Part shown: positions 15,282 to 34,070 of the stretch, piece by piece
Layout of the letters: the number at the start of each line of letters is the position of its first letter
Position numbering within the stretch: the stretch's first letter is position 1
Assembly (NCBI GenBank): GCA_964020085.1
Contig: OZ026599.1
Location: 35,138,183 to 35,202,182 of the forward strand
Direction of reading: 5' to 3'
DNA: 64,000 nucleotides
From: Micromussa lordhowensis
Lineage: Eukaryota; Cnidaria; Anthozoa; Scleractinia; Lobophylliidae
Notes under the pieces: generated by a model
The model's database searches: none
What the model was told of the DNA's origin: nothing
The model's input: the letters and a program-made list of their open reading frames with translations, nothing else
Made by a program: the position numbers and the translations under genes

Positions 15282-15737
15282 TTACTGCTCCAGAAGTACG
15301 TCCATCGCATTCATGAGGAGCGAGATCGTCTCTTGTTGTTCCGCAATTCTCTTTTGGAGTTTTAGCTCCCTCGAATGTTTGGTGAGGTTGTCGGGCACTC
15401 TCGCCATAAAATTTTTGTCCAGGAACACTCGAAGAGTTTCTTCCTTTCGGGACGATATGGTTTATGATCTTTCGACAGCGTGTCGACCAACGTGTTGTGT
15501 GGAAGAAAGAGATCCTTCTCTACTTGCAAAAGCGCTTGTGAAATTGAAGTCTCCAGCTGTTTATCACTCTCCATCGTCAACTTGAGTTGTCACATTTGGA
15601 AATAAAAAATATTGAAGTATTTAAACCTTTCAGGGCTATCGCTCAATCAACTTGTCGTGTGTTTTGTTGCCGAATCTCTTTACGGTGGACAATTCACATT
15701 ATCAACCCAGTTGATAAAACCAAATTATCTTGTAATA

Positions 15738-15774
<37 letters not shown>

Positions 15775-16276: not shown

Positions 16277-16902
16277 CTTCGTCCCAAGTAAAATGATTTT
16301 GCTCAGTCTGAAAGACTTTTATACAAAAACGGATATCGACGAAAAGACGGTGGATGAGGGGTATCCCACACTGTATCATTACCATATATTGTTGCTAACA
16401 ACGCTTTTGCACTCAAAACGTTTTCACGGACTGTTCTTGCTGAGGGAAAATCAACGCTAATGGTAAGTGCATTTCTCTTTTACAAATTATTTTAGCTTTC
16501 ACTTACTCTTGTAGAGTTTTTCAAACACTGTTATTTGAGCATTTCGTTTAGCACACTACTCAAAGTTTGCTTTTAACGTTCTTAATAATAGAAATGAAAG
16601 CGTCAAGGTTACTTCAAATCGTAGATTAGCGTTTCTCAATACTCACTCGTATACGAACAGATATGATTTCTACTAAGAAGCATCGCAATTCTCTGAGCGC
16701 AATACAAGCTACAGCCTAAGTGGAATCTGAAAATAAGCTAACTGTTCGATTACCACGCACAAATTATTGCACAAATAGTTTTAGTTATAGTGGAGCCACA
16801 TTGTGGAATAACCACAATAATAAGTGATTGACAAAACACCAATTGCACGTTCATGATCAAAAATGGGTTTCGTTTTATTCTCGCTAAATATCAATCTTGA
16901 TT

Positions 16903-16908
16903 CTTTAC
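16903..16908. other. Target-site duplication, left copy (CTTTAC)
   Basis: CTTTAC immediately precedes the AGTAGTGG terminus; the same six bases follow the right terminus at 38336-38341. Six-base duplications are the hallmark of Polinton integration. Confidence 0.9.
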
Positions 16909-17029
16909 AGTAGTGGTATCCGCTCGACTAGGGCTGATTTCCCATTTTTCCATTTTCCCATGTTTTCATTGTCATTTCCCATTTTTCATTTTCACTTCCC
17001 ATTTTTCCTGACCCGTAGGTGACGTCATC
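16909..17029 (+). repeat. Left terminal repeat of C, outer piece
   Basis: The outermost 121 bp match the reverse complement of the right end (38215-38335), including the CRE-like TGACGTCA at 17020-17027. It is cut off at the tandem-duplication junction. Confidence 0.85.
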
Positions 17030-18345
17030 ATATGGTTTATGATCTTTCGACAGCGTGTCGACCAACGTGTTGTGTGGAAGAAAGAGATCCTTCTCCACTT
17101 GCAAAAGCGCTTGTGAAATTGAAGTCTCCAGCTGTTTATCACTCTCCATCGTCAACTTGAGTTGTCACATTTGGAAATAAAAAATATTGAAGTATTTAAA
17201 CCTTTCAGGGCTTATCGCTCAATCAACTTGTCGTGTGCTTTGTTGCCGCTATGCTTATTCAAAACACCGCGCGCTTTGTTCCATATAGGATTAAGTGTAC
17301 CCCCTTATCCCTCGAACTGTGCCGGTGAGACTGAAAAAATTCTTATAATTTTTGTTCTTGTTTACTCGCTGGAGTTTCAAAGGAACAAATCGATTTTTTG
17401 CTAATTCTCAAATCGTTTTACGTTTGTAAATGTGATCAGAACTTTTTTACGCAGCGCTTAATCAAATTGCCGCGCACTTACGCATGCTTAGAAGCTAAAC
17501 ATAACATCTAAGGTATTTCAAACAAACATTCGCACTTGAAGTATAGATCAGACAAGCATTGCAAATCGCATCGCTCCTGATTCAACATCCGCACAAATTA
17601 TAGTTCGGTCTAAGCGGTTCTCTAACAGTGGCAAAAATAATTCACTTACATCAACCATAGTCGTTTCAAATTTCTCCAAAGCAATGCTCAGCTCTTGATC
17701 ACTTAGTCCCATAATCGCCAAGACAAGAATCCGAAAAAGTGTGTCCAACTTCGTCCCAAGTAAAATGATTTTGCTCAGTCTGAAAGACTTTTATACAAAA
17801 ACGGATATCGACGAAAAGACGGTGGATGAGGGGTATCCCACACTGTATCATTACCATATATTGTTGCTAACGACACTTTTGCACTCAAAACGTTTTCACG
17901 GACTGTTCTTGCTGAGGGAAAATCAACGCTAATGGTAAGTGCATTTCTCTTTTACAAATTATTTAAGCTTTCACTTACTCTTGTAGAGTTTTCATACACT
18001 GTTAATTGAGCATTTTGTTTAGCACACTACTCAAAGTTTGCTTTTAACGTTCTTAATAATAGAAATGAAAGTGTCAAGGTTACTTCAAATCGTAGATTAG
18101 TGTTTCTCAATACTCACTCGTATACGAACAGATATGATTTCTACTAAGAAGCATTGCAATTCTCTGAGTGCAATACAAGCTACAGCCTAAGTGGAATCTG
18201 AAAACAAGCTAATTGTTCGATTACCACGCACAAATTATTGCACAAATAGTTTTAGTTATAGTGGAGCCACATTGTGGAATAACCACAATAATAAGTGATT
18301 GACAAAACACCAATTACACGTTCATGATCAAAAATGGGTTTTCTT

Positions 18346-18640
18346 TTATTCTCTCCATTTTTCATTTTCACTACCCATTTTTCCTGACCCGTAGGTGACG
18401 TCATCACCTCATTACCATATCTCCTTAACAACGTTAAAGGGAGGGGGGTTACCTTGGGTAACCCTAGTTACTATCTTGGTGAGGGAAATGACTCTTATAT
18501 ATTAGTCACGAAAAGTCCCCAACCCCATGTGGGACATGGTATTCTGTCCCCTGTAACCGAAATAGTACATCACGCATGCGCAGTGACACAAACACGCCGT
18601 TTTACTCTTAAACATGTTTTATTGAGAAAAAACGGTGAAA
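18346..18640 (+). repeat. Left terminal repeat of C, inner piece
   Basis: Resumes within the terminal repeat (CATTTTTCATTTTCAC) and runs to TTGAGAAAAAA. It contains TGACGTCA (18396-18403), a TATA-like TTATATATTAG, CACGCATGCGCAG (NRF-1-like) and, on the minus strand, AATAAA (18618-18623) serving the polymerase gene. Confidence 0.8.
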
Positions 18641-18677
18641 AATATTTCCAACATGAAAAAATTAAAGTGAAAACTAG

Positions 18678-21600
18678 TTACAATTCCATTAACAGGTTCA
18701 CATTGTCCATGTCGTGGTCGTTTAAAGCAGCTCGGTACCCGTATGGAAAGGTCATAAATGTCTCGGGGTCCACCACCCGTTTGCTAAAAACCAATTGATA
18801 TTTCTTGGTTTGCGGGACTGTTTCAATACTGTATGCTTTGCTGTTGCGTACAATATGGTAAGGCTTTATCACAATGGTTTGTCTCGCCCCAGTCTCCATC
18901 GGTTTAAGGATGTCGTCCAACACGTTTTGATGCAGCACAGGGAAATTCAATTGCTTTGAGCCTTCGCTGTTTAGGAAATACCTCGGACTTTACATTCTTG
19001 CTTGCCCTTCTTTGTTAGGTAGCCGTAGTTTTTCGGACCGCCTGAAGCAAACTCGTCAATATGATCACCCTCACTTAGCTCATCTTTGAAGTCGCCGAGA
19101 TAATTCCCCAGCTGCAGTTTGACTTGTCCTGGCAAACTTGTGAAAACCACGCTGTCGGTGTCGAAGTACAACACCCGCTCCTGAAGGAGGTCCAGGGCTT
19201 CATAGAGGCGTAGTCGAGCCCAACAGGTTGTGAAACAGGCCACAAAGATGTTTAGATTTGGCGAGATTGGATCATCTTCGAGCTGATGTTTATAGTGAAT
19301 TTCCACGCGTTGTTCGTTCAGTACACTGACATAGTGAATGTCATGCTTGTCGCTTTCGTAGAATTGACTGAAGGCCACAGGATCTGTGAATTCTTTGGCT
19401 TGTGTTTTGTTGGGTTTCTGCCCAAATTTCCCTCACATGGAATTCAACATCATTTTGGCCAGGGTACGTAACCCAGGATTTTTCTGGATCTTCGCAGGCT
19501 CGAGTTGTATCTTTTCTTTAGCATAGTAATCGGTGATATATTGCTGTTGCTTTGCTGAATTCTCACCTACATGTTCTGGCCAACCGCTCGCTTCTTCTTT
19601 AATTTTCAACCAGGTGTTGACATAATCAGCAAACAAACCGGTCTGTTTTTCAGGGAAGTGCCAGACTTCGTGGATGTGTAGAATTTTATAGCCTTTTTCC
19701 ACCGCTTTGTTGAGTTCGGGCGTACACCAGGTTCCGTGGATTTGGCGCTCCTGGACTGTATGATGACACACGTGACTGCGTTCCAACATCGGTTTCTGCA
19801 TTTCTTCCTCGACGCAGCTTTGGCAGAGAGGAAAGGTGAGCTTGTCGTTTTGTCGAAGCGGCAATACTGGATGATACAGTTCGTATGGCGGTAGCACAGT
19901 ACATTGAGCAATGCCAAAGTAGCGTGAGATGTCAGTGTGACCTGGCTGGAAAATGATCTCTGGATGGCCTAGAGGATACTCGCCGTTTTTGTTCACGTAC
20001 AGATAGAGGGAGGTGTAATCGTAATAATCAATGTCCTCGTCAGCCTCGGCTTGATGATACAGCTTCACGGCATTAGTGCGTCCGCCACAGAATGCATCGC
20101 GGGGGTTCATAGGTTCCACGATGTTGAGCTGATCCACAAAGGTTGCGATGTCTTTGTTTTCTTGTTTCATGCGTTGCCACTGACATCCTCAGATTTCAAC
20201 CACTTTGTAGCCTCGCCCTTTCAGATCGTTTAGTTTCTTTTGCGTGGAGCGGTACACATCACCAGCACAGCATTGCTCTAGGCGTTGATGGGGCTCTGTG
20301 CGGTCAGGATAGCAGCCGGGACAACCGTGCCAGAAACAGCCCTGGAGCTCGTAAATGGTATTAGTAGTCGGATCATAGCCGTCCACCGTGTAGTTGCTGT
20401 TTGGTATGCAGTATTCTCCCTCGGTCCTCGCGTGTTGAATGGAAGACTCGAGCTGAGAATTTTGCCAGTGAAGCCATTCGAGGGCGACTTTAGAGTGATT
20501 GGTTTTCATACGCCAGCCGTGTAAGGGTTCCGAGGCGATGGTGTTAGGCGTCATTCTATTCTGGCGAAGATCCTGATTGCAAGCGGAAGCAATAGTCATT
20601 CTGTCGAAAGGGTTAGACTTTGATTTTTCCTCAAAGAGTTGTTTGAACTTGAGGCAACCCGCTTTCAGGAGCTTGACATCAGACTCACAGTAAGCCACGA
20701 GCTCTTCATCAAAATCGAACTCCACTTGCTTTGAGACTTGTTCGGCATGCCATGTTTCAAAGGCCTTGCGACCGCTGACCGACATGGTTTCCGGCATATA
20801 GTACTTCATGTCCGGGATAAGTCCCACGTACTCCTGATTCTCCGGGGTATTAAACAGATGTGGAAAATAGCCTTTCTTCAACTCCGTGATGCCAAAGGTT
20901 TTTGGAAACGCGGACAAAGGCATCTGGAAGAAGGAGAGTGAGTCAATGAAGCGAATCCTATCGTGAGTGACTTGCATTAACTTGCCGCCGTTACGGACTT
21001 GTTCAATGAGCCGATGTTGTCGATGGTACTCATCCACGATAAAGTAGCCGTCATATCCCTGGAAATTATGGGCGATGACGGTCACAGGGCGCGTGTCGTT
21101 CTCGGTCAGCGTGTCAAGCCATTCCAGAAAGGATTTGATACAGTGCTCGCCTCTAAAATGTTCGGGGCAATTGTCATGTTCTGTTTCAGCAATGAGTAGA
21201 TTTGGCATGTGACAGTTTGTGTCTTGGGTGGCCTCGATGTCAAAAAACACGTGTAGTGGGGGTTTGTCTTCGTCTTCTTCTGTGCCTATGCCTGCCCCAT
21301 TAGCTTCTAAAGTCGCTAGACCAGCGCTTGCTCCCGTTTCGCCTTCTTCTTAGTTTTCTTTTTCTTTTCCTCTTTCTGTTCTTCGGGGGACTTAGCCACT
21401 TGAATAAAACATTTGTGTGTAGCAGCCTCCACGTACTCTTTACATGAAATGCAAACCACATAGCCGCAAAGATGTGTTTTTTGCTCCTTGAAACCAACTA
21501 GTAACTTGTTACATTCACGACACTTGCGCCGTTGAGTGCAAACACTGACATTCTCGGTATCGACGATGGTTCCCTTGTAGGACTTTGTGTGATGCTGCTC

Positions 21601-22862
21601 TAAACAGTTGTCCCCATAGAAGAAACGTCTGCAGCTACCACAGAATGTGGATGCTTTTTGGCGTTCGGCTTGTCTGTAATCGGAACAGTAGTTCTGCATA
21701 CACGCTGGACAATGATCTGGATTACTGTCACATGCGTGTTGTCCTTCATTGTCGTAAGGTTTTAAACAACGACGGCAGAAATAACTTGTCGCGAAGAACC
21801 CTGGGAGAGACGCAATGACATCATAATGTTGACTGCTGTACAGAAGGACTAACTGCTTATCCCTGGGCGGACCAAAGCTGGAGACTTTGTAACCTCGCGT
21901 TTCGTCGACCAAAACTAACTGATAATCGTACAGCGACGGAGCTTTTGAGAATTTTTCAAGCTCTGGATAGCCGCAAGGACCAAATGGAACGTCAGCTTCA
22001 TGATGTAACAATTCGGCCTGTTGCAACTGTATACGACGTCCTTTTTTGAAACCTTCCCAATTGGAATGTTCATCGACTTTGGCTTTGGCTGTCACGATAG
22101 CGCGTGCACAACACAAGTCATCTTTGTTTTTGATGGTCGCGCTTTGCTTAATCCGTTTGAAAGTCTCGGGGTGCCTGTGTCCTGGTTTCATTTTTCTTTT
22201 GTGTCCGCTACCACGTGGTGGGGTGCATACTTGGGTGAACGACAATTGAAATGAGTCATTCATTTCAAAGTTCTCATTTGAGTTAAGGACACGAGCCATT
22301 TGCTGCAGAATACCATCCACGCGATCGCTACCAGTCATCCATTCCTGGGCGGTTAGCCGTCTGTAGCCGTAGGCGTGGTTTAAGCGGTTACTAGCCAAAT
22401 TAAAATACAGGTAATCGCCTCCGGAAATGTTTTCGCATAAAACTAAATTTTGTAAAGCGCGGTAAATAGCTTCACTCAAGGCTTGATTTAAATTTTGATG
22501 TTCAATAAATTGTCCGTGCTGTCTTAGATTGGCGGTGAAGTGACGCTCTCGAACACCCATGCGTTCACTGACGCGGTCCACATACGGGTTTAACGTAAAT
22601 TCAAATCTGCCAGGTTCCTGAGCCGCGAGACTACCTCCCAGCTGTTCTTGAAAACCGGCTTGGCGCTCCAAGGCGTCAGCGGTTTCTGCTAAGGCAATGT
22701 CATCCTCAAAGTCGTTTAGGACCTGGATTAATGTATGGTCATCCAATTCGAACTAGAAAATAAACCACAAATAAATATTCAGTTTTATATGTAAGTGGAG
22801 ACTAAAAAGACTGTTATGAGTAAGTTGAGACTAAAGCATACCGTGTTTTCTTGGCAAGCCAT
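18678..22862 (-). pseudogene. polB: Protein-primed DNA polymerase B of element C
   Basis: Replicative polymerase of Polintons. A mini-exon (22862-22842, MACQENT) ends at GTATGC and joins in phase to the main exon after AG at 22753, an 89-bp intron. The N-terminal third has paired Cys clusters. Exonuclease motifs are FFDIEATQ (Exo I), NFQGYDGYF (Exo II) and YCESDVKLL (Exo III). Polymerase motifs are DYTSLYLYVNKNGEYPLGHP (motif A), the KIQKNPGLRTLAKMMLNSM region (motif B) and LYFDTDSVVF (motif C). Breaks: a frame change near 21310, TGA where Trp is expected at 20186-20191 and at 19433-19435, and a frame change near 19000. Length (~1350 codons) fits the family. The 3' end uses AATAAA inside the terminal repeat. 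Confidence 0.9.
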
Positions 22863-23054
22863 TTGAAAAAATAACAAGTAAAAGGCACAGCGTTGTTTTT
22901 TATCAACAGGTAATTTAAATAGCTTTGCATAAACCATCCAATCACCGCGTAGTTTGAGCGTCTTTGCCCATAAGAAACCAATCAGCATCAAGTTCAAGCG
23001 TCCCATATGTTTTGTAAGTGATACAACACAATTTTTCAATCATTTTGAGACATC

Positions 23055-23399
23055 ATGATCAGAAACCCTAGCATTATTATGGTGGAAGAACCCAGGTTTA
23101 ACAGACTCATTGAATCAACGGTGGTAGCCGTCATTGAAACTGAATTGGTATTATTAAAAGAGGAGTTGGACAACTATCGCGATTACGTGGCAGATCACAT
23201 GTTAACTTTGGACGATGGGGCTTTATCCCAAATGGCGAATGTAGGGAACTATACAGAAGCTTTCATGAAAGGGTGGCGATTGTGGAAACGAAGAGACAAT
23301 GAACAAGCCTTTCAAACTTTTCGTAACATCACCAGGACAAGGTCATTCTCGAAGTCGTTTAGGGCTTCTAACAACAGTTGGTCATCTGTCGTAAGCTAG
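23055..23399 (+). CDS. Small hypothetical protein between polymerase and accessory block
   Basis: ATG at 23055; helical, Glu-rich N-terminal half (FNRLIESTVVAVIETELVLL, LDNYRDYVADHML) then GNYTEAFMKGWRLWKRRDNE. No domain recognised. From about 23335 the plus frame runs over the reverse complement of a duplicated polymerase exon (23395-23340), so the last ~20 codons may not be original. It is divergently oriented to the polymerase. Confidence 0.45.
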   Translation: MIRNPSIIMVEEPRFNRLIESTVVAVIETELVLLKEELDNYRDYVADHMLTLDDGALSQMANVGNYTEAFMKGWRLWKRRDNEQAFQTFRNITRTRSFSKSFRASNNSWSSVVS

Positions 23400-23587
23400 A
23401 AAAGGAGTAACGAAGGAAAAATCGGTGATGTTTCGATAAAAGCATATGCTTTGTTAGAGGGAATAAAGCGCTTCGATAGAAGCGAACACCACTACAACTA
23501 AATCGAATGTTTTCAGTAATGCTTCATGGAATGGAATGGTTTTAAAATACTTACCGGGGTCTCTTGACGAGGACATTTGCTAGCCAT
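23340..23587 (-). pseudogene. Duplicate 5' exons of a DNA polymerase B gene
   Basis: A mini-exon (23587-23555, MASKCPRQETP) ends at a GTAAGT donor. After an intron and TTTTCTAG, 23395 onwards continues in phase with a segment (DDQLLLEALNDFEND) that parallels the start of the real polymerase exon (DDHTLIQVLNDFEDD). Homology stops after about 19 residues. This is a second copy of the polymerase promoter-proximal exons, about 0.7 kb upstream of the first, either a remnant or an alternative start. Confidence 0.6.
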
Positions 23588-23884
23588 GGTATTCTCAAGC
23601 ACACTAAGTCATGAGCTATGAAGCGGTTGTGTCTAAAACGCGGCATGCCTTTGGTTCTTAAAGCTCTGATGTGGGCCTCTTAGACAATAGCCTCATTAAA
23701 ACTTTGGTTTGCCTTAAACTTTTAGGTCATTTTTAACGTTTTTTCGATCGATTCTAACGTTATTTGATAAATCTAAACCGAAAAACTAATAGTTTATGTT
23801 ACGTCTTAAAATAAGAGCGGGTTAAAAAAATTTAAAACGAAACCTAGTTTCGTGCGAGAAAACACAACTTTACAGCGCGCAAAA

Positions 23885-24365
23885 AAGGTTAATAAGCACC
23901 GCATCTGGGACAAAAAAAGATTAAAAAGCGCCGCCCCCGAATAAGCGCCGCATCTGGGACAAAAAAGTTAATAAGCGCCGCCCCCGAATAAGCGCCGCAT
24001 CTGGGACAAAAAAAGATTAATAAGCGCCGCCCCCGAATAAGCGCCGCATCTGGGACAAAAAAGGTTAATAAGCGTCGCATCTGGGACAAAAAAAGTTAAT
24101 AAGCGCCGCCCCCGAATAAGCGCCGCATCTGGGACAAAAAAAGATTAATAAGCGCCGCCCCCGAATAAGCACGGCATCTGGGACAAAAAAGGTTAATAAG
24201 CGTCGCATCTGGGACAAAAAAGGTTAATATGCGCCGCCCCCGAATAAGCGCCGCATCTGGGACAAAAAAGGTTAATAAGCGCTGCCCCCGAATAAGCGCC
24301 GCATCTGGGACAAAAAGTTAATAAGCGCTGCATCTGGGACAAAAAAGTTAATAAGCGCTGCGGCT
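23885..24365. repeat. GC-rich minisatellite (AATAAGCGCCGC family)
   Basis: About 480 bp of alternating half-units: AATAAGCGCCGCATCTGGGAC-AAAAAAGxTT and AATAAGCGCCGCCCCCG. Together they form composite units of about 47-58 bp with single-base variants. It stands out as GC-rich blocks separated by A-tracts in AT-rich surroundings. Reverse-strand frames with CPRCGAY repeats are translation artefacts. Confidence 0.85.
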
Positions 24366-24446
24366 TTTGTTTGAAAATTGCATACCACTTGATCCTAAAA
24401 TAAAAGCATGGTGTGTTTGGTTTTTTTTTTTTAGTATGACACAAAA

Positions 24447-24851
24447 ATGGCGTTTGAAAATAACGATGTTGTGATTTCAAAAGAACACTTTCACCATATC
24501 CAGGAACGACATGTTCGATTGGACCTTCATACCTGTGCGTCCAAGTTTAGAACAAACTACCATCTAGTCAGCTGTTTAGCGCGGTTAACTAAAATGACTT
24601 TGCAAGACAGCGACGAGTACGAAATCATAGAGGAGGGTTTCAGACCAGGACACGGCTACTATTACATGTACGTGTTCACTCTTCGTAAAGTCATCGGCAC
24701 GGATCCGTGGGGGTTTCCAACCAGGAAAATATGCATTTATTATGCTTGGCGACCATGGATGGATGGACGATTTCACATAATCTCAGCGTATCCGTATTCT
24801 TCAAGCTATCATTATTTTTTGAAGATGGGAAAATACGGATATCTCTCGTAG
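24447..24851 (+). CDS. Possible BECR/barnase-EndoU-fold RNase-like protein
   Basis: 134 residues. N-terminal ISKEHFHHIQERHV with two spaced His, then SKF, then an aromatic strand (YYYMYVFTLRKVIGTDPWGFPT) and a C-terminal strand ending FHIISAYP. The order H-x-x-H-I-x-x-R-H ... S-K-F ... R-x-V-G-T-D ... P-T ... I-I-x-A-Y-P resembles bacterial and phage RNase domains of the BECR superfamily, often found as toxins. That assignment is mine from pattern and unverified. A paralogue lies at 63076-63483. It is followed 20 nt after the stop by a histone-like stem-loop. It sits between polymerase and RING gene. Role in the element is unknown; RNA cleavage or host shut-off would be a guess. Confidence 0.5.
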   Translation: MAFENNDVVISKEHFHHIQERHVRLDLHTCASKFRTNYHLVSCLARLTKMTLQDSDEYEIIEEGFRPGHGYYYMYVFTLRKVIGTDPWGFPTRKICIYYAWRPWMDGRFHIISAYPYSSSYHYFLKMGKYGYLS

Positions 24852-24871
24852 GTTATCCTACAAAACAAAAC

Positions 24872-24887
24872 GGCTCCTCTAGGAGCC
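24872..24887 (+). promoter_or_regulatory. Histone-type 3' stem-loop
   Basis: AAAAC precedes a 6-bp stem GGCTCC / GGAGCC with loop TCTA; ACCA follows at once and CATAAAAGTCAA about 9 nt later. It matches the histone mRNA consensus GGYYYUUHUNARRRCC at all positions except the loop-closing pair, which is C-G instead of U-A. It starts 20 nt after the TAG of the 24447-24851 gene; no AATAAA is found nearby. The downstream element is shared with the copy at 15245-15260. Confidence 0.65.
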
Positions 24888-25230
24888 ACCATATGCATAA
24901 AAGTCAATGATTCAACATGCTTTCCCTCCCAAGTTCTCAGGGTATTGTTCCATTGCATACTAATTTGATTCGAAGAGAAATTTTAGCTAGTTTTCACGTT
25001 TTTTCATTCGGGTCTAAACGTTATTTGATTGATCTAAACCAAAAGACCTTTAGTTCATGTTACGTTTTAGGTTAGAAGTGGGTTTTAAAGTTTAAAAACC
25101 TAATGCACATATACGAAAAATCCATTTGATTTCACGAAAGAAACACAGATGGGGAGTGCTGGACGCAAAAATGTGGAATGCAAAAATGGCTGTTTCCTCA
25201 GTGGTCTGCATATCCACGTGTGCGTGGGGG

Positions 25231-25238
25231 TATAAAAG
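25231..25238 (+). promoter_or_regulatory. TATA box of RING gene C
   Basis: TATAAAAG 85 bp before the ATG at 25316. The leader resembles that of the B copy at 12333-12412. Confidence 0.65.
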
Positions 25239-25315
25239 CGGGCAAAGTTCTTTTGCTGTCACTTGTTCAAAGTAATTTTACGTGCTGTCCTTGCTCGCTG
25301 CTTAAACGATTCATC

Positions 25316-26515
25316 ATGACTTCAAACTTACCTCATCGTAGCCGCCGCCTGCAAAACCTAGCTCCTGAGGAAGACAGTCTGGGCGTCTGCTTCATATGTC
25401 AAGACGAGTTCCGGATCGAACAGTTGTCGCGCCTTCAAAAAACAGACTGCTGCCGAGTGCTGCTTCACCGCCATTGTTTAGCCGAAATGGTTGCCCGAAC
25501 CTCCATTTGCGGAAATTGTCGTCGAGATAGAACGCCTGGAAATACGCGAACTCTGCCGATGATTGAAGACAGCGATCTGGAGGAGATGCAGGCTGGAAAT
25601 TATTTCTTTTCGCCAGGTACTTATCTTATTGGGGAAGTTAGTCGAGAACTTAACGAATATAGACAGTTTGGTTTACCAAACCCACACCGTCAAGACTCCC
25701 ATTTATGGCCACTATTGCCTTTTGACATTGCTGACGATATTTTGTTCAAATACCTAGCCCTTATTGATGATTTTATCCACGAGGAATCGGGAGAAATTAT
25801 GTTTATACACGGTTTTGTTGTGTTACCTGTTCCTGCAACAGTTGAAGTGAGACATGCTTTTTACGATTACTTTTTAATGAATATACCCGAACAAGTGTTA
25901 GATTTAAGTTGTAAACGGTATTCGTTTTCGTTTTTTATTTTATCATGACGAACGTCAACCTATTTTTAATGTAACTACAAGATATGTACTTTCTTACGGT
26001 GAACCTGCATGGTATCCCACCGATATATATTATGTGTAATTTTTCTTTTTTAGAAATACCCCTTGAGCCTAGAGTCGTCATGTTAGAAGACGGATTGATA
26101 GAATTTCGGGACCAGGGACGTGCTTTTGAAACACACAATTCTTTAACAACCTCGTGGAATATGTTGCCTTATCCCGTAAACCCGACATTGGTTCACTTAT
26201 TACATAATGTTGTGGAATTTTTCAAATGATATGTATCATGGTACCATACCGGATAACTCTCCGACATTGTTTTTACGTGCGAATGTATATAGTCCACTCA
26301 ACGTTCAGTTAAATGCCATGTACCGTTTTCGTATATACAAAATGTTATTATTTAATACACCTCCCGAATTGTATTTTTTAATTTCTCGCATCAGGTTTCG
26401 TTTATTTTTTATGAGTACAACAGCCATTCCTCGGGAAGAGATATTTATCGAGAACTTAATCTATAGTACTGACTATTCGCCACCCCGTTATTTCAACTTA
26501 GAGTGTGAAATGTAA
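25316..26515 (+). CDS. RING-type protein with duplicated C-terminal domain (copy C)
   Basis: The N-terminal ~75 residues carry a RING-like set (CFICQDEF, DCCRVLLHRHC, SICGNCRRD), so an E3-ligase-like role is likely. Two tandem related domains follow. The first contains GLPNPHRQDSHLWPLLPFDI and FIHGFVVLPV; after a +1 frame change near 25910-25930 it continues with HDERQPIF and GEPAWYPTDIYYV and a stop. The second, in a third frame (26053-26515), contains EFRDQGRAFETHNSLTTSW, a one-base disruption near 26228, and FLISRIRFRLFFMST. The same frame steps occur in the B copy, so introns or ancestral breaks are both possible. Ends before AATAAA at about 26562. Confidence 0.6.
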
Positions 26516-26602
26516 ATAGGTTTTTCTATGTATATTTTTAACATACGATTTTGTAAAACAATAAACCAGACTTGTTTATAACTCATGTCTTTTTTATTGA
26601 GT

Positions 26603-27097
26603 CTAATACAACAATTGAAACGTAAGGCCTCTTGGGGGCTCATTTATCCATTGAAAGAGTTTACATGATTTCCTGGGGCACTTAAAATACAATCGGCCTG
26701 GATTTTTCTGAGACTTGGACATAGCCAAAACCATGGACATATCACAAGCACATTTAAATTTTTCCGGGACAATTCTAGAATAGCACGGGTGGGTCTGCTC
26801 GTCTACGGCTTTCAAGTACTCTGCCAGATTTTCTTTGCTGCTCGTGACGTAACATTTCGTGTTGAAGCGTTTCATAGGGCAGCGGTAATATTCAAATACA
26901 CTTCCATCTTCATGTTGGATAGAACCAAATGTCATATCCACTAAACAGCGCGGGCACTGGGGCTGAGTCATTCCAGGTTTAGGAATAGAGGCTAGGAATG
27001 CGTCAACGTCAAATACTTCTCCTTCTTCCAGCACTTGCACTTCTGTGATTTCCCTCTTGTTGTCCAGATCTGGAGGCATTTCTTTAATGACCCTCAT
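26603..27097 (-). CDS. GRF zinc-finger protein
   Basis: 164 residues with an intact frame. The N-terminal half is acidic (VQVLEEGEVFDVDAFL); the middle has CPRC and a later C in YYRCPM. The C-terminus is a GRF-type zinc finger: CAC, SKSQKNPGRLYFKCP, CKLFQW. GRF fingers bind single-stranded nucleic acid and occur in NEIL3, APE2 and TOP3A. In the element a role in DNA replication or repair is plausible. Element D carries a homologue at 40616-41311. It is convergent with the RING gene and upstream of another minus-strand gene. Confidence 0.75.
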   Translation of the reverse strand: MRVIKEMPPDLDNKREITEVQVLEEGEVFDVDAFLASIPKPGMTQPQCPRCLVDMTFGSIQHEDGSVFEYYRCPMKRFNTKCYVTSSKENLAEYLKAVDEQTHPCYSRIVPEKFKCACDMSMVLAMSKSQKNPGRLYFKCPRKSCKLFQWINEPPRGLTFQLLY

Positions 27098-27149
27098 GAC
27101 ACCACCTTAAATGGTGGGCAAGTCTATTAACACACACACAAAAAAAAAA

Positions 27150-27567
27150 TTATAAATTTACTTTGGCTAACGTATCACGCACATGTTGTTGTATTTTCAT
27201 TCGTTTCGGTGTCAGCTCTCTTTGTTGATGTTTTTGATGCAAACGTAATTTTTGATAGTTCCTTTTCCTAGCAAAGAGACTGTTGCCCAGTGAATAACCC
27301 TTTAGAAGCATTCATGGTCTGTCGTTCTCCAACTTTAACTAAAACAATGTCATCAAACCGAACGGTACCTTGTAGAAATTCTGACTTAGACAGTTCCAAC
27401 ATTAAGTTCTTTCTAGCTTTCTTCTTGGATGCTTCGGAAGCCTTTTTCGGCGCTTTACGTTTTCGTTTCTTGTCCTGTTTCAATTCTGCATTTGTCTCTG
27501 GAAGAGGTGTAGTTTGTTCTTCTTCTGCATTTGCCACTGGGAGAGAGGTAGTTTGTTCTTCTGCCAT
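27150..27567 (-). pseudogene. Basic nuclear-type protein, one frameshift
   Basis: The N-terminus has two repeats of an EEQTT-x-LP motif, then a Lys/Arg/Ala-rich block (KKRKRKAPKKASEASKKK) that looks like a nuclear localisation or DNA-binding tail, then EFLQGTVRFDDIVLVKVGERQ. Near 27300 the frame changes, and the other frame continues with GYSLGNSLFARKRNYQKL and a basic helix to a TAA at 27150-27152. No family recognised. It is divergent from the gene at 27886 across a CCAAT-rich promoter. Confidence 0.5.
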
Positions 27568-27639
27568 TCTTTGAAAAATTCTTAACGCTGAGACTAAACT
27601 GAACTGACAAACTTTGCAAAGAACCAGAGTTTAATTAGC

Positions 27640-27885
27640 TCTTACCCCATGCTCAATCTCGAAGCTGATTGGTTCATACAATTAGACAATGATGTCATAA
27701 GACGCTCAAACTGAACGCTGATTGGTTCATGAAATGAGACAAGTTTAGACAAGGTCGCTCAATCTCGAAGCTGATTGGTTCATACAAATAAACAATGATG
27801 TCATAAGACGCTCAAACTTGTTTCTGATTGGTCACTGATAGCTATATGAAACATATTTAAAAGACACAACACATCATTTTTCAAG
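27640..27885. promoter_or_regulatory. Divergent promoter with repeated CCAAT boxes and CRE-like sites
   Basis: Contains four GATTGG (reverse CCAAT) boxes at about 27669, 27719, 27772 and 27826. A ~115-bp unit (CTCAATCTCGAAGCTGATTGGTTC ... ATGATGTCATAAGACGCTCAAAC, given here in parts) occurs twice. TGATGTCAT is an AP-1/CRE-like core. It separates the divergent genes at 27567 and 27886. Confidence 0.6.
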
Positions 27886-28107
27886 ATGAAACATTGGGAG
27901 CTGACTACCTTTTGTGTACCTCACTTGAAAGCTGTCTTGTGCGCTGTGGAAAGAACTCAATTGGAATTTTACGGGGCTGATCGTAATTTCCTTGAAATTG
28001 AAGAGGCGTTGACTGACTTTTTGGAAAAAATCAGAGAAGCCAAACATGGAGGTTTACACCAACTCAAGTCAAGTCAAGGAACTGATCACAACTCAGACAA
28101 ACATTGA
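27886..28107 (+). CDS. Small unknown protein (73 aa)
   Basis: ATG at 27886 after a TATA-like CATATTTAAAAG. Residues include LTTFCVPHLKAVLCAVERTQ and EIEEALTDFLEKIREAK, predicted helical. It overlaps the next gene by 62 bases in another frame. It could be the first exon or an upstream frame of that gene. No family recognised. Confidence 0.45.
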   Translation: MKHWELTTFCVPHLKAVLCAVERTQLEFYGADRNFLEIEEALTDFLEKIREAKHGGLHQLKSSQGTDHNSDKH

Positions 28108-28672
28108 AGTTGAACCCTTTGACAATCACGTGCCCGAAAGCAAAGAGGTCGATGTGTTTCTACTGGACGACCACCTCTTACAATTACAAGACCGTTACCG
28201 GGAGGACAAAGCATGTCTGTACGAAACCACGCTGCTAAGGCGCAGACCGGATTGGGGCGGTATGATACTGGAAATGATGAAATATAATGAACATGTCCAT
28301 CTGTTTAACCGACGTTGGTACCGTATCTATTACAATCCTCAGACCTACTATTTCAAGTTCAAACTGTGTGACACGCCTAACCTGGTGGCCAGACATAGCT
28401 GTATCCTGTCCTATCCTGTCCTGCTATCCAGTGAAGAGAAACAAACCCTCCAAGTGTTACTACAACCGGTGATCTTTGGAGAGCAGCTAGCCAATCGGTT
28501 GAAGGAAGCAAACGTTCTTGACGACCCCTCTTCAGTGACTAGCGCTGGAGGAGATTACGAAAAACTGTGTCTAAACTTAGAACAAGTCACACTCGGACTT
28601 AAACATCAGAAAGATTTGTGGAAAGATAGGTTTTTCATAACTGCTTTTGGATTACCTTATTTTGAAAACTAA
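28046..28672 (+). CDS. Unknown accessory protein (208 aa)
   Basis: ATG at 28046 inside the previous frame. Acidic N-terminus (EVDVFLLDDHLLQLQDRYRED), a basic/aromatic middle (NRRWYRIYYNPQTYYFKFKL), then helical C-terminus (LNLEQVTLGLKHQKDLW). Intact, with coding-like composition. No domain recognised. It lies in the early/accessory block upstream of integrase. Confidence 0.6.
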   Translation: MEVYTNSSQVKELITTQTNIEVEPFDNHVPESKEVDVFLLDDHLLQLQDRYREDKACLYETTLLRRRPDWGGMILEMMKYNEHVHLFNRRWYRIYYNPQTYYFKFKLCDTPNLVARHSCILSYPVLLSSEEKQTLQVLLQPVIFGEQLANRLKEANVLDDPSSVTSAGGDYEKLCLNLEQVTLGLKHQKDLWKDRFFITAFGLPYFEN

Positions 28673-28761
28673 TTACCTTGTTTGTAATCTTATATCCATG
28701 ACGTAATTAATGTGAGCAAATAAAAGTCAAGTTCCAATTAAAGTTGTCTCATTCTACAACG

Positions 28762-29028
28762 ATGTTTGACGAGAGTGTGTGGTCCATGCTAGTAGAAAAG
28801 TGTCAAAGTATCTATCAGAGACACGGGTTAGGAATAGAGATTCCCTCAGGCGTTGCTGACCCTGTAGAAATATTCGATCACACAGATGTGGCTGAAAATG
28901 TGTTTCGATTTGTGGTCTATATATTGTGGTTAAAAAGTCAATCCGATGCATTTGCGAAAGCTGTGTATACCTACATGTTTAGAAGTGATCTCTGGGAAGA
29001 TTGTACTTTTAAAGTTTGGATGTTATGA
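28762..29028 (+). CDS. Small unknown protein overlapping integrase start (88 aa)
   Basis: ATG at 28762; sequence VWSMLVEKCQSIYQRHGLGI, then VFRFVVYILWLKSQSDAF and YTYMFRSDLWED. The stop TGA (29026-29028) overlaps the integrase ATG (29025-29027) as ATGA. No family recognised. Confidence 0.55.
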   Translation: MFDESVWSMLVEKCQSIYQRHGLGIEIPSGVADPVEIFDHTDVAENVFRFVVYILWLKSQSDAFAKAVYTYMFRSDLWEDCTFKVWML

Positions 29029-30077
29029 AAGGAAAGAAAACAGATAAAGTCCTATTGGAACAGTATCATGTTCCGGAAAACCCTGCGAGTTATGGAGGCG
29101 TGTCACGCTTTGCAAAGAGTCAAGGCATCAGTCTTAAACAGGCCAAAGCCGTTTTGGGAAACGATTTGGGATATACGCTTCACAAACCACGCCGACGCAA
29201 ATTTCCTACGCTTCCCGTCAAGGTGTTTACGATGGACGAGCAGTGGACGGGCGATTTGATTGAAGTGATTAACATTTCAAAACAAAACAAAGGGTTTAAG
29301 TATTTACTCACTGTCGTGGATGTATTTTCTAAATACGCGTGGGTGGAGCCAATAAAAAACAAGACAGGAAAGGCTGTCGCAGAAGCCTTTGAAAAGATTT
29401 TAAAACAAGGCAGGAAACCAATACAGTTGCAAACGGACGATGGAAAAGAATTTTATAATAAAACTTTTCAACAGTTACTGAATCATTATAAGATTCATCA
29501 TTTTAGTACGAGTGGCGATACGAAAGCCAGTGTCGTCGAACGACTTAATTGGACACTCGAACAGCGTATGTTTCGCTATTTTACCGCCAACAATACCTTG
29601 AAGTTTGTACCCGTGTTACAATCATTGGTCAAAGGGTATAATCGTTCTTACCACCGCAGTATTAAAATGGCGCCAAATCAAGTGACAGAAGCCAACAGCT
29701 CTGAAGTGTACGCTAATTTGTACAAGAATAAAAAAGTAAAAAAACCCACTTTGAGAGTGGGCGATCGCGTGCGTTTGAACAAAAAATTCAGATTGTTTAA
29801 AAAAGGTTATTTACCTGGATGGACAGAGGAAGTCTTTGTCATTCGAGACAGTATCCCTGGACCTGTTGCTACATACAAAGTTCAAGAATTTGATGGGAGC
29901 CCTTTAAGAGGGACGCTTTATGAACAAGATTTACAAAAAGTCAATGTTAAAGACAATGATATTTTTCGCATTGAAAAAATTGTCAAACGAAAAGGCAATA
30001 AAGTCTTGGTACAGTGGAAGGGTTGGCCTCAGAAATATAACAGCTGGATCGAGAAAGGTCAAATAGCAAAACTATGA
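29025..30077 (+). CDS. int: Polinton integrase with C-terminal chromodomain
   Basis: Retroviral-type DDE integrase that inserts the linear element and makes the 6-bp target duplication. ATG at 29025 chosen because it overlaps the upstream stop. Domains: N-terminal helical region (~1-70); catalytic core with Asp in QWTGDLIEV, strand LLTVVDVFSKYAWVEP, Asp in LQTDDGKEFYN and Glu in SVVERLNWTLEQRM; a beta-barrel-like segment (LRVGDRVRLNKKFR); and a chromodomain at the C-terminus (FRIEKIVKRKGNKVLVQWKGWP, given as its opening, then NSWIEK). The frame is intact and the catalytic triad is present. Trp in LNWTL replaces the more usual Arg. Stop overlaps the next ATG as ATGA. Confidence 0.93.
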   Translation: MKGKKTDKVLLEQYHVPENPASYGGVSRFAKSQGISLKQAKAVLGNDLGYTLHKPRRRKFPTLPVKVFTMDEQWTGDLIEVINISKQNKGFKYLLTVVDVFSKYAWVEPIKNKTGKAVAEAFEKILKQGRKPIQLQTDDGKEFYNKTFQQLLNHYKIHHFSTSGDTKASVVERLNWTLEQRMFRYFTANNTLKFVPVLQSLVKGYNRSYHRSIKMAPNQVTEANSSEVYANLYKNKKVKKPTLRVGDRVRLNKKFRLFKKGYLPGWTEEVFVIRDSIPGPVATYKVQEFDGSPLRGTLYEQDLQKVNVKDNDIFRIEKIVKRKGNKVLVQWKGWPQKYNSWIEKGQIAKL

Positions 30078-31192
30078 TCGAAGACGAATTTTACTTGACT
30101 TTACCCAGTCATAGCAGTTTACAGGAATTTCCACAGAATGCCAACAATAATTTCAAAGTCCGACTCCCGAAACTCATTCGACTGTCCGAAGGACATTCGA
30201 AAGTGGCACTGGCCAGTATCTCGGTCCCAGATCCCAAGAATGCGTTACCCACGTGGTTACACAACAATTTAACGTTGTTCAGCTATACGTCTTATTACGC
30301 TGAAAAGAACAATACATCCAATAAAATCGGTTTTGAGACCGACGTCAAATTACCTCATATTAAAAAACATGTGGGTGTATCGTTAATGACAGGAGATGGT
30401 TTTCTCAAGGGGTTAATTGAACATACACAAAAACTTTATCTTCAAGACAATTTGTATCCGGGATGGCTGACTGGTTCTACGACAAAACTTTATCACCCCG
30501 AGTTTATTATTAAGGAGGACGAAATTATTTTAGACACTTCCAAGATAGCATTGACGGACATGACCAGTTTAATATACCCTGCGATATGGATCAACCTCAC
30601 ATTAGCTCTGGAACTAGGATGGTTTGAAGAAGATGAAGACAAAGACGACCCGCAGTTTGCTTATAAACTAGGACCCAATTTAAGTATTCAACTCAACGGT
30701 TATGAAATTCCTTCCACCACAGACATAGTTTCGTTTTTTACAGCAAATGGGGGTGTGCAACATGTCGCACATTCCGACAAATATTGGATTAGACCCCGAT
30801 GGGCCGACGGAAGTTTAATGGATACGATAAAAATCAGTTTAGATGTCAGTTGGCGATTTATAAATTTGGACTATGCCTTTGAGAACGTATTTGGACACAG
30901 TACGCGCCCCTTGTATGTCTATTCAGATGTAAATGCAAGTACTGTATTAGGCGATCAAATTACTGATTTTATTCACGAAGTAAATTATAAAAGAGAAGGC
31001 AATGGAAGCTATTATTTTGAACCGACCCATCTCCAATATAAACCGCTTCGTAAACAGCTGTTAGACATTATTCAAGTACAGATTGCAGAAGCCACAGGAC
31101 AGTTAGTCAACTTTGGTCAAGGCATAACAACCGTGACATTTCATTTCAAGAATGAAAGAAGACTTTTATGTGACCCTCCCGAGCAACAGTAG
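30074..31192 (+). CDS. Polinton structural protein, first paralogue
   Basis: 372 residues starting with the family signature EFYLTLPSHSS and NFKVRLPKLIRL, then KVALASISVPDP. The C-terminal part has EVNYKREGNGSYYFEPTHLQ and TTVTFHFK. Proteins of this family are encoded next to the major capsid gene in many Polintons and are thought to be minor virion components, possibly penton or vertex; the exact role is inference. It overlaps the next paralogue by 41 bases. Intact. Confidence 0.75.
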   Translation: MIEDEFYLTLPSHSSLQEFPQNANNNFKVRLPKLIRLSEGHSKVALASISVPDPKNALPTWLHNNLTLFSYTSYYAEKNNTSNKIGFETDVKLPHIKKHVGVSLMTGDGFLKGLIEHTQKLYLQDNLYPGWLTGSTTKLYHPEFIIKEDEIILDTSKIALTDMTSLIYPAIWINLTLALELGWFEEDEDKDDPQFAYKLGPNLSIQLNGYEIPSTTDIVSFFTANGGVQHVAHSDKYWIRPRWADGSLMDTIKISLDVSWRFINLDYAFENVFGHSTRPLYVYSDVNASTVLGDQITDFIHEVNYKREGNGSYYFEPTHLQYKPLRKQLLDIIQVQIAEATGQLVNFGQGITTVTFHFKNERRLLCDPPEQQ

Positions 31193-32255
31193 CTTGACCG
31201 ATTATCCTAACAGCAGCAGCAATAATTTCAAGGTCAGATTGCCAACACCATTACGATTACAGGGAGATTGGAAGGTTGCCTTGGCCAGTATTTCCGTTCC
31301 AGACCCTCAAAACACTTTACCTAATTGGTTAACGGACAGTTTGCCTTTGGTGTACATGACATGGTACAACGCAGACACCAATCATTTGAATAAACATTAT
31401 TTAGAGGCCTCGTTTCTTCTTAGAGATATCAACGAACATGTCGACATTAACATGTTGACAGGCGCTGAGTTTTTGAAAAACGTGTTTCATTATTTTAAAA
31501 AGAAAATATATGTTAAAGATGGTAAAGCCAACAGACAATATGGAGATACGGACACAGAAAAGACCTATTATCCAGAAATGAGAGTGGAAGGCGAAGATGC
31601 GATACTAGATAGTAGTAAGGTCAAAAAACACGATTTTGGTCGTGGACATGATACAACGCCCCTGGGTTGGATGGCTCCCGGCTTTGCAGTCAACAAACAA
31701 CTGGCGTTTCAAATGGGGTGGTTTGTGGAAAACTACAATTCTAATCCCCAAGTAGCTATTCGATTAGATCCCAACCTAGTAATGGAACTGCACGGTTATC
31801 TTAAACCGTTTACAACAGATATTAAAACAAGATGGAATGGAAACGGTGAAGATGTAAGTTCACCCTACAAATCAGCCTATTGGATCATTCCAAAAGATTC
31901 CAACGGTAAATTAACGGATTACATACGGCTGAGTTTGGATGTAAACTGGCGTTTCACGAACCTTAATTATGCATTTGAACACGTGTTTGGGAATACTAGT
32001 CGTTCGTTATTTGTGTACTCGGATGTAGGAGGCAGTAGCGTGTTGGGTGATCAAATTACTGATTTTATTCGCGAAGTAAATTATAAAAGACAAGGCAAAG
32101 GAAGCTACTATTTTGAACCGACCCATCTCCAATATATACCGCTTCGTAAACAGCTGTTAGACATTATTCAAATACAGATTGCAGAAGCAACAGGTGCTCT
32201 GACTACATTCGGACGAGGTATTACCACAGTCACGTTTCATTTCAAGCAAGTATGA
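31152..32255 (+). CDS. Polinton structural protein, second paralogue
   Basis: 367 residues, same layout: DFYVTLPSNSS, NFKVRLPTPLRL, KVALASISVPDP, GWFVENYN, EVNYKRQGKGSYYFEPTHLQ, FHFKQV. The nucleotide sequence near the C-terminus is almost identical to paralogue 1 (both contain TTTTGAACCGACCCATCTCC), which suggests recent gene conversion of the tail on an older duplication. Two copies may form a heteromeric capsid part. Intact; its stop overlaps the next ATG as ATGA. Confidence 0.75.
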   Translation: MKEDFYVTLPSNSSLTDYPNSSSNNFKVRLPTPLRLQGDWKVALASISVPDPQNTLPNWLTDSLPLVYMTWYNADTNHLNKHYLEASFLLRDINEHVDINMLTGAEFLKNVFHYFKKKIYVKDGKANRQYGDTDTEKTYYPEMRVEGEDAILDSSKVKKHDFGRGHDTTPLGWMAPGFAVNKQLAFQMGWFVENYNSNPQVAIRLDPNLVMELHGYLKPFTTDIKTRWNGNGEDVSSPYKSAYWIIPKDSNGKLTDYIRLSLDVNWRFTNLNYAFEHVFGNTSRSLFVYSDVGGSSVLGDQITDFIREVNYKRQGKGSYYFEPTHLQYIPLRKQLLDIIQIQIAEATGALTTFGRGITTVTFHFKQV

Positions 32256-32532
32256 TCGGAAGTGGCCTTATACGATTTCACCCTTCTGTGACCACGGTTT
32301 AACCGATACCGCCTGGAAAACAATCAAAGAAGTGGGCCCCGTGCTTTTGAGAGATGTCATTACAGCTTCAGCTGAAGCCAGTTTGAAAGGTTTAAAAACA
32401 GGTGTCAAGGGCAATCAAGTTAATTGGAGAGGTGGTCTCAAAGCGGCTAAACAAGGCGCTAAACGTAAAGCAACACAAGAACTGACCAAACTTGTCAAGA
32501 AAAAAGCCCGCAAAAGTATTTTTGGTTTCTAA
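32252..32532 (+). pseudogene. pVI-like small basic protein, frame change after start
   Basis: ATG (32252) overlaps the preceding stop. The first codons read MIGSGLIRF, then the coding-like frame shifts near 32285 and continues with TAWKTIKEVGPVLLRDVITA and a lysine-rich tail ending KKKARKSIFGF. An amphipathic helix plus basic tail next to capsid genes is typical of protease-processed internal proteins. Assignment as pVI-like is inference from position and composition. Confidence 0.5.
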
Positions 32533-32534
32533 AA

Positions 32535-32702
32535 ATGATTCCGATTTATTCGCGACGTGTCAAACGGCTCCCCTATTACAAAAGAACGTATAAAGGCGGT
32601 ACTATACTTAGGACAAGGTCAAATTTACCTGACTATTGATGGGTAAAGAGTGCATTTGAAGCTCGCTTACGCCGGCGCAGAAAAAGAAGGAGAAGAAAAT
32701 GA
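32535..32702 (+). pseudogene. Arg-rich core peptide with one stop
   Basis: MIPIYSRRVKRLPYYKR, then YKGGT (adenain-type cleavage-like), then a TGA at 32637-32639 followed in the same frame by a tail ending in RRRRKRRRRK. The final stop overlaps the capsid ATG as ATGA (32699-32702). It looks like a mu/pX-type DNA-condensing peptide. Confidence 0.55.
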
Positions 32703-34068
32703 GTTTGTCAAAATCAGTGGCTGTGCAAAGTCCTAGCTTAAATTTATTTGATGTTCCCCCAACCGATTACAGTCTAGTGGAATCCCGCTATGTACCCATC
32801 AACCCTTTCACGACGGGTATTCACCCTATCGATTTTCAAATCGATCCCCAGGACAGTTTTGTAGATCTGTCCAAAAGTTACTTTGAAGGCGAATTACAGT
32901 TGAAACTCGACAATGGTGGTAACATAGCCAATGACACGTTAGTTACTATATGTAACAACTTGATGCACTCGTTGTTCAAACAAATCAATGTAAGTCAAAA
33001 TGGAACACTCATCAGTCCTCAAACCGATACCTATCACCACAAAGCGTATATGGATGCTGTGATTCATAATGACCGTGACGATGGGGAAACGATAATCAAA
33101 CCAGAAGGTTGGTTTAACGGGATGTCGGGATGCCAGCGGTACAGCATTAACAGCTAACCAGCTCAACGCGGGGCATGATGATCATAAAGCGTTATCAGAA
33201 GACGAGCGAAACTGGGTGAAATCGATTAAACCGTTTAACGGCAGTAAAAAAGTGGTGTTGAGGTTCAAACCTTACCTAGAAGTGTTTCAACTGAGCAAAC
33301 TGCTCGTACCAGGTGTGCAAATACAAATTCAAATGTACTTGAACAGCCGTGAAATTTGGAGTCAAAAACATGGCGGGGCAAGACATATCAGAGACATTAC
33401 TGCCGACGACCTAAAAATGACCTTCTTCCTAAACCAGAAAAAAGTCTTACCTTCTGTGTCCAGAGGGCTACTCAATCAGTTTCAAAAAGGTTCTAAAAAA
33501 GCCGTGTACCCCACCACCAGGAGTGAAATCAGGACTTTCAACCACCCTAATGACAGCGTGTACTTTGAAGCCAATAATGTTTCACAATCAGCTCCCTAAC
33601 AGAGTGATTGTCGCGTTGCTGGGTCAGACAGCGTTCAACGGTAGCGAGGCCAAGTATGCTTTTGGCTACAAGACCTTTAACATTGCAAGCATCAAACAGT
33701 TAGTGAGAGGTGAAGAATATCCCTACAGGATACTAGAATTGGATCATCAAAATGCAAGTCAAGATTTGAGAGGGTATCACCAGTTTCTACAAGCCACAGA
33801 ATGTTTGACCAAAAGAAAAGCCAACATGGTAAGAGCAGAAGACTGGGGACGAGACAAGGGTTGCACTCTGTTTGTATTTAACAATGCACCGAGTGAAGCC
33901 TTGAGCAGTTCTGTTCTGAACCCACCCCAGACAGGCGAAGTCAAGATTGTGATTCGTTTTGGAGCTAACCCTGGAGTCAATCTGACTGTGCTTGTGTACG
34001 GTGAATTTGAAAATCTGTTGGAAATTGACGGCAATCGTACTGTGCTGTACGACGTCTACAGAACCTAA
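32699..34068 (+). pseudogene. Major capsid protein (double jelly-roll), two frameshifts
   Basis: Homologous to the Polinton capsid family often annotated in invertebrates as F54H12.2-like. N-terminal LNLFDVPPTDYSLVESRYVP and IDFQIDPQDSFVDLSKSYFE; middle with VLRFKPYLEVFQLSKLLVPG and LKMTFFLNQKKVLPS; C-terminus EDWGRDKGCTLFVFNN and VLVYGEFENLLEID. Frame changes near 33130 and 33585 split it into three parts. Total ~455 codons fits the family. It is the shell protein and lies between core peptide and protease. Confidence 0.85.
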
Positions 34069-34070
34069 GA

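Follow-up and report, generated by a model that had tools for sequence, protein, structure and literature searches.

To our knowledge, the histone-type ending of mRNAs is held to occur in animals almost exclusively on histone genes, and the present locus raises the question of whether a gene carried by a mobile element may end in the same way. The gene is a 134-aa open reading frame (ORF) of a virus-like element, hereafter element C, found in the window, by which we mean the whole stretch of 64,000 nucleotides analyzed (Table 1). Its TAG stop codon lies at 24849-24851 and is followed after 20 nt by a hairpin, the order of the signal at 24864-24917 being AACAAAAC-GGCTCC-TCTA-GGAGCC-ACCA-TATG-CATAAAAGTCAATGATTCAACA. 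A search of the whole window with all 4227 Rfam families yielded a match to RF00032, the replication-dependent histone mRNA 3′ end, at 24867-24912 (+) with 34.2 bits (E 3.9e-6), above the gathering score of 34 bits for this family. The sequence-only reading of this locus had described a histone-type architecture made of a hairpin 20 nt past the stop, an A-rich lead, ACCA and a downstream element, and the letters, the RF00032 score and the host-like character of the downstream element all bear this out: the observation of a histone-type 3′ hairpin on the 134-aa gene is real and is hereby confirmed. The same reading is right in that a poly(A) signal is not near, as neither AATAAA nor ATTAAA occurs within 600 nt 3′ of the stop, these being present for 13 of the 17 other ORFs checked; the downstream element itself includes CATAAA. 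Its view that the loop-closing pair departs from the consensus does not hold, since a C-G pair closes 5 of the 12 histone hairpins of the host. An array of 29-49 bp units (AATAAGCGCCGCATCTGGGACAAAAAAAGATT...) is also seen at 23891-24358, directly upstream of the gene, and is a possible promoter or regulatory array.

Table 1. Coordinates of the features identified in the window.
Feature	Positions	Strand	Remarks
Outer Polinton, host of the inserted element C	14729..42971		TIRs 14729-15139 and 42560-42971
Downstream element of the second hairpin	15215..15241	-	5e-5 by mean and by best score; top window place for the host downstream-element profile
Second histone-type stem-loop GGCTCC-CTTA-GGAGCC, outer Polinton	15245..15260	-	Rfam 34.0 bits; host-histone model 63.1 bits
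Decayed gene B copy (96 aa when intact), in two frames	15282..15580	-	stop 21 nt before the second hairpin
Element C, Polinton/Maverick, ~21 kb	16909..38335		TIRs ~350 bp; CTTTAC at 16903-16908 and 38336-38341
DNA polymerase B region of element C	18971..22746	-	several ORFs; PF03175 1.7e-18 for 20192-21250, the sole part put to Pfam
134-aa ORF of element C	24447..24851	+	28 database homologues, 53-96% identity
A-rich lead AACAAAAC	24864..24871	+	before the hairpin; host histones have similar leads
Histone-type stem-loop GGCTCC-TCTA-GGAGCC	24872..24887	+	Rfam RF00032 34.2 bits; host-histone model 55.0 bits
ACCA, expected cleavage region	24888..24891	+	directly 3′ of the hairpin; ACCA in 12/12 host histone ends
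Downstream element CATAAAAGTCAATGATTCAACA, presumed U7-binding element	24896..24917	+	host-likeness score; low divergence among copies
GRF zinc-finger gene of element C	26603..27097	-	PF06839 3.2e-7; similar gene at the same place in family-A Polintons (L035)
rve integrase with chromodomain-like end	29016..30077	+	PF00665 2.2e-16
A32-like packaging ATPase candidate	34658..35236	+	PF04665 0.0029, 17.6 bits vs cut-off 22.8
Gene distantly related to the 134-aa gene (38% identity), with an internal stop	63085..63465	+	histone-type hairpin absent: at most 13.5 bits nearby with the host-histone model

Element C had been taken for a Polinton, and it indeed resembles Polinton/Maverick elements in its polymerase B, its rve integrase, its ~350-bp terminal inverted repeats (TIRs), its 6-bp target duplication and its length of ~21 kb; it differs from Polintons as described in the open-access papers searched in having a gene with a histone 3′ signal. 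The capsid candidate at 32699-33154, the one put to Pfam, gave a match below the cut-off, and the element looks partly decayed, its polymerase region being spread across several ORFs. The left TIR is split by a local duplication (17030-18406), which consists of outer-element DNA (15455-16882) placed inside this TIR and ends at GTAGGTGACGTCATCA. The 134-aa protein had been proposed to be RNase-fold-like, a proposal that our analyses do not support: it has no match in Pfam at E 0.05 (and no histone match at E 1), its predicted structure has a mean pLDDT of 57.9, and the best PDB match of the model is a chain of a CdiA-CT/CdiI complex with E 0.071.

A second hairpin of the same type is found in the window, so that the site at 24872 stands as described but not as the only one, there being two such hairpins (also 15245-15260, minus strand). 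The second one belongs to the outer Polinton, where it lies 3′ of a decayed copy of a gene which we denote gene B and which has 206 database homologues; its RF00032 match, at 15265-15220 (-) with 34.0 bits, appears in the E-value run and not in the gathering run. When 18 ORFs of both elements were checked, the decayed gene B being outside these 18, the 134-aa gene was the only one with a hairpin within 600 nt, and within element C the signal is on 1 of the 16 ORFs checked.

We have thus compared both sites with what chance would give and with the histone genes of the host. Perfect hairpins with a 6-bp stem and a 4-nt loop number 44 in the window (strands counted apart), and ACC follows only those at 24872 (+) and 15260-15245 (-); the histone-type pattern occurs twice in the window and never in 100 sequences of 64 kb simulated with a first-order Markov model. 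The histone genes and 3′ ends of this 581-Mb genome point to an animal, perhaps a cnidarian. A covariance model was trained exclusively on 12 of these ends (H1, H2A, H2B, H3, H4), whose hairpins all read GGCTC-Y-TTTA-R-GAGCC, with C-G as the closing pair in 5, U-A in 3 and U-G in 4. Over the window, this host-histone model has its two best places at 15268-15215 (-), with 63.1 bits, and at 24864-24918, with 55.0 bits, followed by a place with 16.6 bits; chance hairpins from two phage contigs score 23.7 and 18.9 bits. The host downstream-element profile, used alone, ranked the 15241 site first and did not list the 24896 site, and a local-alignment test was used next, in which the downstream elements are scored without the hairpin. 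Here, for each window site, one of 20,000 stretches drawn at random from the window (5e-5) equals the mean score with which the site aligns to the 12 host elements; the best score is equalled by 3 in 20,000 (1.5e-4) for the 24896 site and by 1 in 20,000 for the 15241 site, the mean-score value for a control hairpin of a phage contig being 0.47. A chance hairpin at 24872 is ruled out by the simulations, by the score gap (55/63 vs 16.6) and by the conservation in relatives.

This conservation is observed across diverged copies within the one genome. A search of the genome with the 134-aa protein gave 86 matches, window copy and fragments included, and 36 short 3′ flanks were fetched, selected first among the best matches and next among weaker ones. 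The host-histone model evidences the signal in 27 of these flanks, in all cases on the sense strand and with 36-64 bits; absence of the hairpin from related elements had been named beforehand as the result that would speak against a histone-type end. The distribution follows the identity to the window protein, with 27 signals among the 29 relatives at 59% or more, whereas the 7 relatives with at most 52% have none. In the upper group, the signal is missing from L077 (72%) and L102 (68%, the match ending before the C-terminus). Where the stop was found in frame, the hairpin starts 20-22 nt past it; the 16-nt hairpin is intact in 21 of the 27 positives and damaged in 6. The mean pairwise divergence among the 27 positives plus the window copy is 0.318 for the tail of the coding sequence (CDS), 0.201 from stop to hairpin, 0.104 for the hairpin, 0.257 for the gap and 0.096 for the downstream element, or 0.328, 0.208, 0.127, 0.263 and 0.114 when the 21 distinct rows only are considered, these rows having been chosen for having the signal, which favours a low signal divergence. 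The hairpin value of 0.104 covers all 27 positives, that of 0.034 among intact-hairpin copies only being biased. The hairpin and the downstream element thus diverge about one third as much as the CDS end among the 27 signal-bearing relatives, and a less constrained spacer flanked by two conserved blocks is the pattern that a hairpin plus a U7 element would predict. A subfamily without the hairpin (L090, L091, L094-L097; distant) has T-rich 3′ flanks instead. A head-to-tail array of the 134-aa gene was also noted at C10:4627186-4668011, with 11 full-length units and one broken, ~3.67 kb apart, whose proteins are near-identical and in which the hairpin is present in both units checked (L071, L072).

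The signal is not confined to this family. In an Rfam search of the genome, 75 of 99,737 first-look candidates were scored, 74 of them above the cut-off, the counts being therefore lower bounds, and 45 of the 75 scored hits (L001-L030 and L046-L060) were examined. Mobile-element genes precede 25 of them and histone genes 14, and 6 are without an assigned gene (L007, L022, L024, L026, L028, L051); the 30 other hits, which form part of tandem arrays on four contigs, score the same as the seven examined array members, all H1. The mobile-element hits comprise 8 after a 138-aa gene (gene A), 7 after gene B or B′, 5 after an IS1595-type transposase and 5 after a DDE_3/Tc1-type transposase, and the top eleven hits by score (39.5-41 bits) are ten mobile genes and L007. 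Frames are broken in some of the mobile copies (L003-L005, L020, L052). With the host-histone model, the hairpins on assigned element genes elsewhere in the genome have 54.6-71.4 bits, except for the first of two Tc1-type hairpins (23.3 bits), and hits without an assigned gene score 42.5 (L028), 55.8 (L022), 59.6 (L026), 60.0 (L024) and 71.2 bits (L051); the high histone scores at L041 arise partly by construction, 4 of its 6 hairpins being in the training set. In the downstream-element test, the first Tc1-type hairpin gives 0.95 and L028 is weak at 0.009. The distance from stop to hairpin is 24-32 nt in core histones and 17-32 nt in mobile-element genes, the Tc1-type gene having its two hairpins at 3 and 75 nt, and the resemblance of the mobile-element distances to those of core histones counts for a histone 3′ end. 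Among the hits without an assigned gene, L024:1497-1548 (-) is a histone-type end after a 154-codon frame that has 83 homologues in several sources, L022 sharing this end, and L051:97-149 (-), with 71.2 bits, follows broken frames that are transposase-like by eye and for which Pfam gives nothing clear.

As for the elements themselves, gene A lies upstream of a GRF gene and an rve integrase, an arrangement shared by the 134-aa gene of element C, its neighbours being identified by Pfam in L035 and by translated similarity to the window integrase in L032, L035 and L043. The two transposase families were assigned through PF12762 (IS1595-type, 1.4e-15) and PF13358 (DDE_3, Tc1-type, 3.2e-23). The IS1595-type transposon, which we take to be Merlin-like, spans L036:4116-7285; its TIR ends are perfect over 66 bp, the duplication of 8 bp reads CGAAAGTT, and its two genes, which are divergent, both have the signal 27-28 nt past the last codon, stop included. 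Its second gene encodes a 286-aa protein with coiled-coil-like matches, and near-identical copies (L017-L021) together with the CGAAAGTT duplication suggest recent activity. AATAAA is found just past the downstream element in both IS1595-type genes and in the Tc1-type gene, the copies of which (L046:734 and 806) have two tandem histone-type hairpins 72 nt apart, with a downstream element only at the second. The interval between the L036 genes, the histone spacers and one spacer of element C are rich in CCAAT/ATTGG; histone-like promoters on mobile genes were considered and dropped, the count of these motifs being 0 upstream of gene A/B and of the 134-aa gene.

Comparisons within these families add to the picture. 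Gene A subfamilies that share ~73% protein identity differ in the closing pair, which goes from U-A to C-G, the rest of the hairpin being unchanged. A set of 17 distinct hairpins outside histone genes (14 assigned to elements; L022, L024 and L026 not) is closed by C-G in 10 cases, by U-A in 5 and by U-G in 2. The closing pair is the only one that changes on both sides among the 17, and the number of such pairs is within that of shuffles (478 of 500 reach it); as these hairpins were picked with all six pairs standard, the 102 paired cells out of 102 prove nothing. Across 9 copies of gene B, a set without L007, the divergence is 0.028 for the hairpin, 0.123 for the CDS end and 0.030 for the DNA past the downstream element; this neighbouring DNA being equally conserved, the conservation is there inseparable from one tied to the terminal repeat, and the gene B case is weak alone.

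In histone genes, as described in PMC9756948, SLBP binds the stem-loop, U7 snRNP binds the downstream element and a CPSF73-containing complex cleaves, leaving no poly(A) tail on mRNAs made mainly in S phase, and from this established pathway (PMC9756948) the simplest reading of our data is that the mobile-element mRNAs would be processed as histone mRNAs. We consider it likely, at a probability of roughly 75%, that the 134-aa gene and certain other mobile-element genes carry a working replication-dependent histone 3′ end, which would feed them into the host SLBP/U7 pathway and give S-phase-linked, tail-less mRNAs. Host SLBP would bind the hairpin of the pre-mRNA, the U7 snRNP would bind the downstream element, the 5′ end of U7 pairing with AAAAGYCAATGAYCAA-like elements, and the CPSF73 complex would cut just past ACCA with no poly(A) tail left. 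As a result, the mRNA would build up during S phase and be degraded once replication stops, and the gain for the element would be expression during cellular DNA replication, which may suit an element resembling a DNA virus or a transposon of the cut-and-paste type. The use of SLBP and U7, the tail-less mRNA, the S-phase timing and the benefit to the element are what we infer from signals whose place and likeness to host histone ends are directly observed. A search for the host U7 gene with RF00066 gave no match in the genome and equally none in 14 control genomes, and is hence uninformative. We have counted against the mechanism the 6 damaged hairpins among the 27, L077 without the signal, the broken mobile frames, the decay of element C, the 6 of 45 hits without an assigned gene, the CATAAA of the window downstream element as a possible poly(A) signal, the AATAAA of the IS1595-type and Tc1-type genes, the equal conservation of the DNA next to the gene B signal, and the confinement of the two-sided change to one base pair.

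This CATAAA, together with the AATAAA past the downstream elements of the transposase genes, counts for a reading with dual 3′ ends, in which the hairpin would serve S-phase cells and a CATAAA or AATAAA overlapping or past the downstream element would serve non-dividing cells, as is reported for human H2AC18 (PMC9756948). We regard it as possible, if rather doubtful: AATAAA and ATTAAA are absent from the 600 nt past the window gene, and ATAAAA-type letters are also in the host histone element, where they belong to the histone signal, and may thus have no role in polyadenylation. The AATAAA past the signal in the IS1595-type and Tc1-type genes would equally be expected if histone 3′ ends had been acquired by recombination with host histone genes and were merely carried, real polyadenylation taking place elsewhere. 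The close likeness of the element hairpins and downstream elements to those of the host, and the Tc1-type copies whose first hairpin is without a downstream element, go in the same direction. However, such passive capture seems unlikely given that relatives of the 134-aa gene with as little as ~60% identity keep the signal at about the same stop distance, its divergence being some three times lower than that of the CDS tail, that the signal is on several unrelated genes, and that the closing pair changes on both sides between gene A subfamilies.

A palindrome acting at the DNA level, or in another RNA role such as element replication, termination or packaging, unrelated to SLBP, would agree with the location of the gene B hairpin near the terminal repeat, where the neighbouring DNA is equally conserved. 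Yet the hairpin is accompanied by ACC and a host-like downstream element, lies in the sense strand a short distance past stops, and is found on elements with unrelated transposases, which renders this explanation highly improbable. The histone 3′ end might also be common on many intronless host genes, mobile elements simply following a host habit. The hits without an assigned histone or mobile gene (6 of the 45), among them L024 with its homologues, leave some room for this, as does the survey, in which only 75 of the 99,737 candidates were scored and host genes are outside; but all 39 assigned hits are histone (14) or mobile-element (25), and we deem a general host ending improbable.

A working histone 3′ end on mobile-element genes, our preferred reading, is on balance probable in a broader form as well, in which several unrelated lineages (Polintons with different signal-bearing genes, IS1595-type and Tc1-type transposons) would have separately adopted the signal, giving rise to a class of non-histone, replication-dependent, tail-less mRNAs and to transposition or virus-like genes active only in S phase. 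The signal resembles the replication-dependent histone mRNA 3′ end (RF00032) in its 6-bp stem, 4-nt loop, A-rich lead, ACC(A), downstream-element spacing and short stop distance, and fits the host version; it differs in being on mobile-element genes, in the loop, TCTA in the closest relatives vs TTTA, and in that processing is here predicted. Likewise, the L036 transposon is like IS1595/ISXO2-type elements in its PF12762 transposase, TIRs and 8-bp target duplication, and L047 is like Tc1-type elements in its PF13358 (DDE_3) transposase, whereas the transposase genes here differ in that they end in a histone signal, as do both divergent genes in L036. Among the open-access papers searched, a set with few subscription papers, none was found on histone 3′ ends of transposon or Polinton genes save for one count: six histone 3′UTR stem-loops in a collection of Polinton-like viruses and virophages, and none in cryptophyte elements (PMC12220804). 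These belong to the same RNA family, and the section with these figures gives the count only, without gene association, downstream element, conservation or mechanism. The stem-loops described for the Bari1 transposon in PMC3828361 are other ones, located at splice junctions.

These results suggest that selfish elements may tie gene expression to the time at which the cell copies its DNA. If true, this would be a direct and cheap way for them to follow the cell cycle, would extend the targets of SLBP and U7 by a new class, and would leave the transcripts of these genes out of RNA data obtained by poly(A) selection; the timing of DNA transposon and integrated virus activity to replication becomes a directly testable question. 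In viral contigs, pattern scans gave no match in one, 2 matches inside open frames and 2 more that the host-histone model does not match at E ≤ 1, and protein-based scans gave none for the 134-aa family, the integrase or gene B and 5 weak matches to gene A. Elsewhere in the window, a ~300-bp tandem repeat with three tRNA matches is found at 57105-58194.
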